Positions 31,028 through 33,526 of a stretch of 64,000 nucleotides of DNA are shown in pieces. Source of the DNA: Parvibaculaceae bacterium Mf 1.05b.01 (lineage in GTDB: Bacteria > Pseudomonadota > Alphaproteobacteria > Parvibaculales > Parvibaculaceae); assembly GCA_000509225.1 (NCBI GenBank), contig BAOK01000001.1, forward strand, positions 930,001-994,000, written 5' to 3'. Numbering within the stretch: position 1 is the stretch's first letter; each line of letters starts with the position of its first letter. Both the position numbers and the translations under genes were made by a program. The notes beneath the pieces were generated by a model. It did not search any database, was not told the DNA's origin, and saw only the letters and a program-made list of their open reading frames with translations.

Positions 31028-31798
31028 GTGGCCGATGAGGAAAGTGTAGTGAGTGAGGAAACAGTTGCAGGCGAGGATGGCGCAGCTGAAGGCACGGGAG
31101 AAACTGCAACAGGGGAAACAGGGGTAGAAGGTGCAGAAGCACTTACCGGACTCGATGCGGCTGCTGCTGCGGGTGCTGATGGCGGCATTTGGGAGCTTAT
31201 CCCGCTTGTCGATAGAGGCGGCCCAATCGTCGTTATTCTGCTTTGCCTGTCGGTTCTTTCGCTCGCGATTATTCTGCTTAAGGTATTCCAGTTCTGGCGC
31301 GCAGGCCTAACCCGGCGTGCGTTTATTGATGTGGCTATCGACAAAATCAAATCAGGTGATCGGGATGGTGCCGCAGCGGTGCTCCGTAAAACGCGGTCGC
31401 CGGTTGCGCGGACCTTGTTGGCGGGCATTGAAGGCGCGCAGAATGGCGGCAATGCGGAGGAAGAAATCGCCCGTGTTGGCGGCAATGAGCTGGGCGGATT
31501 GCAAAGCTACTTCCGTTGGCTTGAAGTGATCGGGAATATTTCGCCTCTGCTCGGCCTCCTGGGTACCGTAATTGGGATGATCAACGCGTTCCAGCAGTTG
31601 CAGCTTGCTGGCAATAAGGTTGATCCGGCGATCCTGTCCGGTGGGATCTGGGTGGCGTTGCTGACGACTGCTGTTGGTCTTGCGGTCGCCATTCCAGCAA
31701 TTGCGTCTCTTAATCTCTTGGAGAGCAGGGTTGATGTCGCGCGCTTAACATTGCGGGATGCGTCCTCAAGGTTGCTTGCAGCCCTTAAATCTGCCTAA
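31028..31798 (+). CDS. exbB: ExbB/TolQ/MotA family proton channel with acidic N-terminal extension
   Basis: A 256-residue ExbB-like protein, the pentameric membrane part of a proton-driven energy transducer. Helix 1 is RGGPIVVILLCLSVLSLAII; helices 2 and 3 contain ISPLLGLLGTVIGMINAFQQ and GIWVALLTTAVGLAVAIPAI, with the conserved threonines and prolines. The first about 55 residues are acidic and Glu/Gly/Ala/Thr-rich with no signal peptide. I choose the GTG at 31028, with GGGGGAG 9 bases upstream; a TTG at 30983 lacks such a site. It is the first gene of an operon with two exbD genes and a TonB-like gene, all overlapping or closely spaced. Confidence 0.88.
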   Translation: MADEESVVSEETVAGEDGAAEGTGETATGETGVEGAEALTGLDAAAAAGADGGIWELIPLVDRGGPIVVILLCLSVLSLAIILLKVFQFWRAGLTRRAFIDVAIDKIKSGDRDGAAAVLRKTRSPVARTLLAGIEGAQNGGNAEEEIARVGGNELGGLQSYFRWLEVIGNISPLLGLLGTVIGMINAFQQLQLAGNKVDPAILSGGIWVALLTTAVGLAVAIPAIASLNLLESRVDVARLTLRDASSRLLAALKSA

Positions 31799-31809
31799 GG
31801 CGGTTTGCC

Positions 31810-32214
31810 ATGTTTGATGAAGCAATCCACAAAAAGAGGATCGTGAGCTTAACGCCACTTATCGATGTGGTGTTTCTGCTCTTGATCTTTTTCATGCTGG
31901 CGAGTTCATTTTTGCAGACCCAGTCGATTGCCGTTCTTACACCGGCACCAGATCCGGAGGAGGTCGAGACTGACCGTCACGTGGTTGAGGTCTGGGTTCT
32001 GACTGACGGGAGTCTGCGGCTCGACGGTGAACCGATCACGCCTGAGGCATTGAGTGAAGGTATTCGTACCAATCTCGGCGGTGACCCTGAGGCCGTTGTC
32101 TCAATTTTGGCTGAAAATGGCTCGGCGGTGCAGCCGCTGATTTCGTCGATTGAAGCTGCCCGCAATGGTGGTGCTCAGTCCATTGGAACATCACGAGTGG
32201 AGAGTTTGAGATAA
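31810..32214 (+). CDS. exbD: ExbD/TolR family protein, canonical (membrane Asp present)
   Basis: A 134-residue ExbD. After a short basic cytoplasmic start (MFDEAIHKKRIVSLTPLIDV) comes the single membrane helix LIDVVFLLLIFFMLASSF, in which Asp19 matches the essential proton-carrying Asp25 of E. coli ExbD. The rest is a periplasmic domain (RHVVEVWVLTDGSLRLDGEP and onward). It lies 11 bases after exbB and its stop overlaps the start of a second exbD by one base. In ExbB-ExbD motors a dimer of ExbD sits inside an ExbB pentamer. Confidence 0.92.
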   Translation: MFDEAIHKKRIVSLTPLIDVVFLLLIFFMLASSFLQTQSIAVLTPAPDPEEVETDRHVVEVWVLTDGSLRLDGEPITPEALSEGIRTNLGGDPEAVVSILAENGSAVQPLISSIEAARNGGAQSIGTSRVESLR

Positions 32215-32618
32215 TGATCGATTTCGAAGAACCTCCTCAGCGTCGGCCTTATGAATCGGTTGTGCCTCTGATCAATGTGGTCTTCCTCCTGCTGATCTTT
32301 TTCCTCCTGGCCGGTACGTTGCAGCCAACCGACGATGTCGATGTTGATCTCCCGGTGGGACAGGTGGATGACAAGCGCGCGTCTGAGGACCTGGTGCTCT
32401 ATGTCGAGGCTGATGGGTTTGTCTATCTGGGCGATCGTGTCATGGGCGCTGATCTTGCAGCCTATGCATTGCGTGATTTCCTGGATGAACAGGGAATTTA
32501 TGACGTCTCCATTAAGGCAGATGAAAACGCACCTGCCCATGAGTTGATTAAGCTTATGGAGGGCCTCCGGAACGTTGGCGTGCGCGAAGTGAACCTTGTG
32601 ACGGAGCAATCCGAATGA
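32214..32618 (+). CDS. ExbD/TolR family protein, variant with Asn for the membrane Asp
   Basis: A 134-residue ExbD paralogue. The membrane segment is VVPLINVVFLLLIFFLLAGT: the residue equal to the proton-carrying Asp is Asn21, codon AAT at 32274-32276. The rest is an ordinary ExbD periplasmic domain (EDLVLYVEADGFVYLGDRV and beyond). It overlaps the first exbD by one base and the TonB-like gene by four. A protein with no protonatable Asp should not move protons as a homodimer; together with the Asp-bearing paralogue it could form an asymmetric dimer with one working site. I recall Asn-type ExbD in other alphaproteobacteria, but know of no tested role. Confidence 0.9.
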   Translation: MIDFEEPPQRRPYESVVPLINVVFLLLIFFLLAGTLQPTDDVDVDLPVGQVDDKRASEDLVLYVEADGFVYLGDRVMGADLAAYALRDFLDEQGIYDVSIKADENAPAHELIKLMEGLRNVGVREVNLVTEQSE

Positions 32619-33526
32619 GTATGGCTGAGTCAGGTCAATTAAGTGGCTTTGAAGCCCCCCGTCTTCGAACCGTGTTGCTTTGGTCTGTTGGCCTTCACCT
32701 GCTGGTGCTGGTCTACTTTTTGTTGGGTGGCGGGATTTTTGGGTCAGAGGGACCTGGAGACGGCGACGCTCTAACCTTCCAGCTGGCTGCAGGGCTCGAC
32801 AATAATGACGATGCGGCTGCCCAGATTGATGGCTCTAACGAACAAACACCGACATTCGCGGATGCGGACATCGATCCCGTTCCTGAACCCACGCCTGAAC
32901 CGGAGCCCAAACCCGAACCAAAACCTGAAGTAAAACCGGAACCCAAACCGCAGGTTACGGATCAAATGCCGACACGCCGGAACGAAGACGTGCAACCTCA
33001 GCAGGCAGCAACCACGCAACAGCGCGGCGACGAAGAGGTTGCGACGCCCGGCGGCTCTACGGGGATCGTTGGCTATGACCATTACGGCGGCGGCGGCGAT
33101 CTGGAAGAGACAATTCGAAACCGCCCGGGCAATTCACTCACGGGCAATGCGATTAGTGCGCGCCTGACAGGCCAAACTCTTTTTCTTGAGATGGGACGTC
33201 TGGATATTCAGGGCGGCAACCGTCTCACCAATGTGGAGATTCAGCTCAATGCGGACGGCACAAGCCGTGTGAAGCTCATTTATTACCACTACAAGACCTA
33301 CCACCGGGAACACTCATCGACCCGCTCGAAGCGGGGCAGTGGGCGTTGGTGGATTGAAGGCAATCGCTGGTGTCATCAATCAGAAATCATCTCCTATGGC
33401 ACCAAGGACTGTTATGACATGAACCTTGATGGGTCTGTCTTGCGCCTCTATTACGCGGAGTGTCTGCGGAACTCGTCCCCGCACTGTAAATCCTATCGAT
33501 TGGCGGGTGAGGGCTCTATCCGATAG
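32615..33526 (+). CDS. TonB-like protein with non-TonB four-cysteine C-terminal domain
   Basis: A 303-residue protein with TonB architecture at its N-terminal side. The membrane helix (about 19-38) contains LWSVGLHLLVL, with Ser24 and His28 spaced as Ser16 and His20 of E. coli TonB, and a Pro-rich stretch (about 87-112, PEPKPEPKPEVKPEPKP) would span the periplasm. The C-terminal about 130 residues are not a TonB domain; they hold NSLTGNAISARLTGQ, NVEIQLNADGTSRVKL, GRWWIEGNRWCHQ, and Cys at 253, 266, 283 and 291. The pattern resembles small DUF995-like exported beta domains (DG..GxWxIxGxxxC). It overlaps exbD2 by four bases. No TonB-dependent receptor is nearby. Confidence 0.82.
   Translation: MSMAESGQLSGFEAPRLRTVLLWSVGLHLLVLVYFLLGGGIFGSEGPGDGDALTFQLAAGLDNNDDAAAQIDGSNEQTPTFADADIDPVPEPTPEPEPKPEPKPEVKPEPKPQVTDQMPTRRNEDVQPQQAATTQQRGDEEVATPGGSTGIVGYDHYGGGGDLEETIRNRPGNSLTGNAISARLTGQTLFLEMGRLDIQGGNRLTNVEIQLNADGTSRVKLIYYHYKTYHREHSSTRSKRGSGRWWIEGNRWCHQSEIISYGTKDCYDMNLDGSVLRLYYAECLRNSSPHCKSYRLAGEGSIR

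Follow-up and report, generated by a model that had tools for sequence, protein, structure and literature searches.

A Ton-type operon of Parvibaculaceae with an Asp/Asn pair of ExbD proteins and a TonB-like transducer that has a distinct C-terminal domain

What would a Ton-type motor drive if one of its two ExbD proteins lacks the membrane aspartate and its TonB-like partner ends in something other than TonB_C? The question is raised by a four-gene operon (positions 31028-33526) in a stretch of 64,000 nucleotides from Parvibaculaceae bacterium Mf 1.05b.01 (contig BAOK01000001.1, positions 930,001 to 994,000 of the forward strand), which is referred to here as the window; the source genome has 3.8 Mb in two contigs. 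A preliminary description of the window had proposed that an ExbB, two ExbD proteins and a TonB-like protein, here called TonBx, make up a candidate new energy-transducing system. Coordinates and family matches agree with these four coupled genes and with their spacings of +11, -1 and -4, exbD1 and exbD2 overlapping. The features, in window coordinates, are as follows.

31028..31798, + strand: ExbB (MotA/TolQ/ExbB channel), 256 amino acids from GTG 31028; MotA_ExbB E=6.7e-27
31810..32214, + strand: ExbD1; ExbD family E=9.2e-19; transmembrane Asp19, codon GAT at 31864-31866
32214..32618, + strand: ExbD2; ExbD family E=2.4e-20; Asn21 at the Asp position, codon AAT at 32274-32276
32615..33526, + strand: TonBx, TonB-like transducer, 303 amino acids
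32666..32734, + strand: membrane helix of TonBx, about residues 18-40 (by eye), with S24-x3-H28
32771..32791, + strand: putative D-box-like strand L53-TFQLA-A59, directly after the helix (from alignment and the pattern in PMC10907165)
32873..32953, + strand: Pro/Glu/Lys-rich linker of TonBx
33110..33523, + strand: C-terminal domain (C-domain) of TonBx, residues 166-303 (138 residues); Cys253, 266, 283 and 291 invariant

We favor, with a probability of about 55%, the reading that the operon encodes a heterodimeric Ton motor with one Asp that pulls TonBx, whose C-domain, in place of TonB_C, grips an envelope partner that is not a receptor. What is established here is the gene order, the residues and their conservation, the distinctness of the C-domain in profile searches, and how widely Asp/Asn pairs occur. 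In the 5:2 motor models, five ExbB, TolQ or MotA surround two ExbD, TolR or MotB; in the published cycle, the two Asp exchange protonation in 36-degree steps and ten protons are used per turn; the Asp is termed absolutely required, and MotB D22N mimics its protonation (PMC12905483, PMC9389320, PMC9008036; these and the other papers cited here were available in part). In the motor favored here, five ExbB would surround an ExbD1/ExbD2 heterodimer with a proton-binding Asp on one shaft helix only, giving a one-Asp proton cycle, and the Asn of ExbD2 would act as a permanently 'protonated-like' companion. The motor would engage TonBx via the S-x3-H helix and the D-box-like strand, force would pass to TonBx through the Pro-rich linker, and the four-Cys C-domain would hold a partner in the envelope that is not a classic TonB-box receptor. 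If this is true, a turn would take five rather than ten protons, and two Asp exchanging protonation could not be the mechanism. A one-Asp shaft would test the two-Asp rotary model with respect to the need for both Asp, the proton cost per turn and the symmetry of the shaft, and its natural, conserved Asn partner is the same change that was used as the MotB protonation mimic.

The arrangement of the two exbD genes is constant in the order to which the window belongs. TonBx was found in 39 of the 40 genomes of the window's family, which is the whole order in this collection, and the motor genes adjoin it in 32 of the 39. All 32 order operons read have Asp-ExbD first and Asn-ExbD second, with both exbD frames open, and this regularity indicates that the arrangement is more than chance. 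Among 385 genomes of the class, the C-domain profile matches 21, nine of them strongly (E<1e-40): five in the window's family and four in two other families, f126 (three) and f167 (one). The ExbD2 profile found the same nine genomes at E<=1e-55, the next best match being 4e-28, and the f126 and f167 loci hold the same four genes as the window operon.

The preliminary description had also stated that one ExbD is without the membrane Asp, and Asn21 in ExbD2 versus Asp19 in ExbD1 bears this out. In a set of 224 distinct ExbD sequences, in which pairs and close relatives are over-represented, the position is Asp in 147, Asn in 76 and Ser in one. Given that Asn is the residue in 76 of the 77 non-Asp copies, the Asn of ExbD2-type copies looks selected. 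It is invariant in an 18-row alignment of chosen Asn copies, and the surrounding pore helix is strongly conserved. Decay as the origin of the Asn was considered and ruled out by this near-invariance.

The same residues bear on another possibility, namely that ExbD1 and ExbD2 form separate homodimer motors, or that the Asn form is structural or regulatory outside the pore and the working motor contains a two-Asp ExbD1 dimer. For the pair AglQ/AglS, the hetero- or homodimer state is called unknown in PMC9389320, which leaves room for such an arrangement. It is nevertheless improbable here, considering that the Asp gene and the Asn gene come in a constant order and overlap, that the Asn is near-invariant within a strongly conserved pore helix, and that one locus (L165, see below) may be a natural fusion.

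A quick tree of 116 ExbD sequences was calculated with the Asp/Asn column left out; 16 of its 113 inner branches are starred and its deep branches are weak. The ExbD1 copies of TonBx operons fall into a single clade (98) and their ExbD2 copies, including a Ser copy, into a second (97); each clade lies close to the corresponding partner from other operons of the Asp/Asn type. The second ExbD of L190:1004-1886 (genome G148) groups with the Asn copy L187 yet has Asp, a possible reversal or older state.

Asp/Asn pairs also occur beyond the TonBx operon. After the TonBx operons, the ExbD2 profile next matches ExbD pairs in very different members of the Alphaproteobacteria, again with Asp first and Asn second. 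In a sample of 114 class genomes, about one per family, in which ExbD was read only where a tandem was indicated, Asp/Asn pairs are present in at least 18 genomes (17 families) and Asp/Asp pairs in at least 11; 85 genomes had no pair seen or were not read. Asp/Asn pairs were found in three genomes of other classes as well (G649, G539 and G550), among the best 30 of 296 phylum genomes matching. The TonB gene downstream of the pair has TonB_C in all nine cases tested, eight loci plus L138 of the source genome itself. Proteins that are not TonB-like lie next to the pair in L176 and L177, and some Asp/Asn loci were too short or without a clear frame for reading the downstream gene.

L138 (G000:C2:204000-219000) contains a receptor (Plug and barrel), Peripla_BP_2, FecCD, ExbB, ExbD(Asp), ExbD(Asn) and a TonB with TonB_C; its Asn-ExbD reads PLINIVL, and we read the locus as a haem/iron uptake cluster. 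In Phaeobacter inhibens pP88_b (L250), an Asp/Asn pair lies inside an annotated haem-type cluster with a receptor, and Leisingera sp. S132 (L251) has another exbB-exbD-exbD-tonB operon of the Asp/Asn type. The haem cluster of Ruegeria TM1040, compared by description, contains exbD1 together with a 'duplicate' named exbD1a, and growth on haem depends on HmuR, the receptor of this cluster (PMC5225302). That such pairs sit in receptor clusters makes it most probable that motors of the Asp/Asn type act as Ton motors.

Since Asn-ExbD pairs are widespread and their TonB has TonB_C in nine of nine cases, Asn-ExbD is part of a general class of motors, and it is the C-domain that defines the TonBx branch. 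The single 'new system' of the preliminary description therefore falls apart into two things, an Asp/Asn Ton motor that is widespread and a single branch of it whose outer end has been exchanged. What survives of the proposal is a conserved four-gene unit with a distinct C-domain, which recurs across the order, f126 and f167; Asn-ExbD as its mark does not survive, as it also occurs with TonB_C transducers. Neither of the two outcomes that had been named as counting against the proposal, a clear match of the C-domain to TonB_C or to a TonB-box family and a failure of the four genes to co-occur elsewhere, was observed. We read the TonBx operon as a branch of the Asp/Asn Ton motor in which the outer end of the transducer was exchanged. 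The broader proposal, that Alphaproteobacteria widely use an obligate ExbD heterodimer with one Asp and that one branch swapped the receptor-binding end of TonB and pulls another envelope partner, is made tentatively, at somewhat less than even odds.

TonBx consists of a short start, one membrane helix, a short strand-like segment, the Pro/Glu/Lys linker and the 138 C-terminal residues. TonB is attached to its motor by an SHLS helix motif (PMC12905483; for the role of the motif also PMC12204202), and the D-box is a strand with alternating hydrophobic and polar residues that is captured between two ExbD (PMC10907165). Judged by sequence, TonBx appears to carry both attachment elements, the S-x3-H helix and a D-box-like strand. 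The helix His is kept in 30 of 31 aligned TonBx proteins and the Ser four residues earlier in 26 of 31; the one exception for the His is an additional copy in G030 that has no linker. This second C-domain protein (L049:8569-9258) follows directly after TonBx and has a hydrophobic start. Matches of TonBx to TonB models are below threshold and confined to its N-terminal and Pro-rich part, with 20.9 bits against a cut-off of 33 for Pfam TonB_N and 37.3 bits against a cut-off of 315 for the NCBIfam TonB model (residues 74-136); the TolQ, TolR and TolA models also gave sub-threshold matches in the operon.

The window ExbB keeps the Thr of LGTV and LLTTA, the pore Thr by our reading. At the position of E. 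coli ExbB Glu176, with equivalence taken from alignment reading, it has Val. Across 32 TonBx-operon loci, the equivalent residue is V in 18, E in 7, A, Q and T in 2 each and I in 1, and in the other Asp/Asn loci it is E in 25 of 45 scored (4 of 49 unscored). Loss of Glu176 as a matching change to Asn-ExbD was set aside, as the residue also varies in some other ExbB.

Several findings weigh against a heterodimeric motor that pulls TonBx. Absence of the Glu176 equivalent has been taken as a sign of a non-working ExbB3 (PMC8599685). The residue state needs at least four changes on the ExbD tree, without support for a single origin of Asn, and the L113 operon, one of the four in f126 and f167, has Ser instead of Asn. 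In L165:1039-1902 (G162), Asp-ExbD and Asn-ExbD share one continuous frame of 287 amino acids, which would suit a heterodimer, but the assembly has 410 contigs, and a frameshift in two overlapping genes may have produced the single frame. The C-domain model that AlphaFold built from four sequences is poor, with a predicted local distance difference test (pLDDT) value of 48. In addition, six genomes have TonBx with no exbB-exbD-exbD adjoining, namely G001 (on an 8.9 kb contig), G002, G013, G029, G035 and G036, so that TonBx can persist without the exbB-exbD-exbD motor.

The six motor-less genomes, together with the extra C-domain protein of G030 that is without the helix His, would fit a TonBx that is no longer motor-driven, with a C-domain that binds ligands or signals in the periplasm and an operon that is a relic. 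We consider this very unlikely, given that the helix His is kept in all but one of the aligned proteins, that both exbD frames are open in every operon read, and that the strand following the helix resembles the D-box of E. coli in five of the motor-less relatives, as though they had been rewired to a different motor. This strand is LEVTLV in G001 and G002, VAVTIF in G013, VAITIF in G029 and INVTIF in G036, in each case nearer to ISVTMV, the D-box of E. coli, than is LTFQLA, the form in the window. This resemblance is a sign that these five TonBx may use another ExbBD; the strand of G035, the sixth, is nearer to the operon type. In G002, G013 and G029, TonBx by our reading stands alone beside a MarR-like gene in the usual slot, and since it occupies the slot of the operon, loss of the motor genes would be the simpler reading. 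The usual slot of G020 holds a C-domain fragment of 68 amino acids alone (L255:2332-2538), beside MarR-like, flavin-reductase-like, MotA and MotB genes; in this 71%-complete genome, it reflects either decay or misassembly.

On the view that the motor does pull TonBx, the C-domain would decide what is held. By profile, it is distinct from TonB_C and from every family searched, in line with the non-TonB C-terminal domain of the preliminary description. TonB_C (PF03544) gave no signal in 17 aligned members, and profile comparisons of the C-domain against Pfam, NCBIfam and PDB, carried out with its distant relatives as well, returned nothing or chance-level matches (best E=0.089). Neither a TolA C-domain nor a vWA domain was matched in TonBx by Pfam. 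The four Cys are kept in 31 of 31 aligned TonBx proteins and may form disulfides, and the poor AlphaFold model suggests that the C-domain is probably all-beta.

Weaker relatives of the C-domain fall into two kinds. L114-L120 and L122, from four further families of Alphaproteobacteria, are TonB-like proteins, and the stretches fetched around them showed neither exbB nor exbD. L121, L123-L125 and L127 lack a TonB-like part: they are either short and secreted or made of several domains, and in one case the C-domain-like stretch forms the tail of a protein kinase; L126 has no C-domain frame. Across 299 phylum genomes, the C-domain was found in the source genome and one genome of the same class only, and no viral relatives were found. 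The kinase (L123:6059-8155, G221) has an apparent membrane segment, and its far end is like the C-domain core (GxWWxEGxxxC...C).

These data also bear on the proposal of an ordinary Ton system, in which a highly diverged C-domain still grips a TonB-dependent receptor encoded elsewhere. The genome has five receptor Plug domains, and a tonB gene seldom adjoins the genes of its motor; it may be located anywhere or close to receptor genes (PMC12204202). None of the receptors is near the operon, as had been noted before, the closest Plug domain being about 210 kb off. The proposal seems rather doubtful when set against the absence of a TonB_C signal in the 17 aligned members and of any credible PDB sequence match, and against the C-domain relatives that have no TonB-like part, which would be unexpected for TonB_C. 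Moreover, the genome already has two TonB_C proteins: its PF03544 search found two other TonB genes, and TonBx was not among them.

A Tol-like role in envelope maintenance, in which the C-domain holds peptidoglycan, a lipoprotein or a lipid and the motor keeps the outer membrane tied down, is possible but on balance unlikely. The sub-threshold TolQ, TolR and TolA matches and the absence of a nearby receptor fit such a role, and the presence of TonBx in nearly every genome of the order suggests a housekeeping function. However, no Pal, TolB or CpoB-like gene is present among the seven neighbours scanned (the MotB there has an OmpA domain), and the genome already has a TolR-like gene with a TolQ-like neighbour elsewhere (L063 and L139, named by reading).

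The one-Asp motor with an exchanged transducer end, as favored here, shares parts of its plan with several known systems. The Ton system, including tonB1-exbB1-exbD1-exbD2 of Sphingobium SYK-6, has the ExbB/ExbD families, tandem exbD, a TonB-like helix with linker and the single operon in common with the window, but ExbD1 and ExbD2 of SYK-6 both keep Asp25 (PMC8599685), whereas the second ExbD of the window has Asn and its transducer is without TonB_C. Other alphaproteobacterial Asp/Asn operons (such as L138, L250 and L251) have the same Asp-then-Asn order, usually a TonB-like gene next, and related ExbD clades; unlike in the TonBx operon, their tested transducers have TonB_C and some adjoin receptors. 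A 2025 paper described TonB-like transducers with a vWA C-terminal domain that are accompanied by two dissimilar TolR-type genes (PMC12204202). Like TonBx, they join a motor-binding helix with His to a different C-terminal domain, and their tolQ-like gene with two unlike tolR-like genes likewise resembles the window; they differ in the vWA fold, and loss of Asp in one partner is not reported in the available part of that paper. The exchanged C-domain would add another kind of TonB_C-less transducer beside the vWA type and possibly a new job for the motor. TolQ-TolR-TolA follows a homologous motor and transducer plan, from which the window differs in having no TolA C-domain match and no TolB or Pal among the seven neighbours. 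AglR-AglQ-AglS of Myxococcus likewise combines one channel protein with two unlike MotB/TolR-type subunits, but AglQ and AglS are both described with an aspartate (PMC9389320), unlike ExbD2 of the window. Two ExbD orthologues are mentioned for Caulobacter (PMC12864828). The literature searched, which was available in part and did not extend to preprints and most subscription papers, describes neither an Asp/Asn ExbD pair nor the TonBx C-domain.

An alternative in-frame start of ExbB, TTG 30983, lies upstream of GTG 31028. The seven neighbours of the operon were assigned by Pfam as flavin reductase, MarR, penicillin amidase, 3-hydroxyisobutyrate dehydrogenase type, ALAD, MotA and MotB. The window and f126 have a slot in common, consisting of MotB, flavin reductase, the operon, the 3-hydroxyisobutyrate dehydrogenase type and hemB, with window genes identified by Pfam and f126 genes by reading within the fetched stretch. 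A functional tie to MotA/MotB from this neighbourhood was set aside, as synteny alone was seen. Named relatives belong to 'Rhodobiaceae' and alphaproteobacterial metagenome-assembled genomes.

No plasmid relatives of ExbD2 were found by tblastn. Plasmids of Pseudosulfitobacter sp. DSM 107133 (L248:5992-8757) and Qingshengfaniella alkalisoli (L249:4904-7790) carry exbB-exbD-exbD-DUF4384 with Asp in both ExbD, the former within a type VI secretion gene cluster, and the DUF4384 protein is another possible non-TonB partner of an ExbBD motor.

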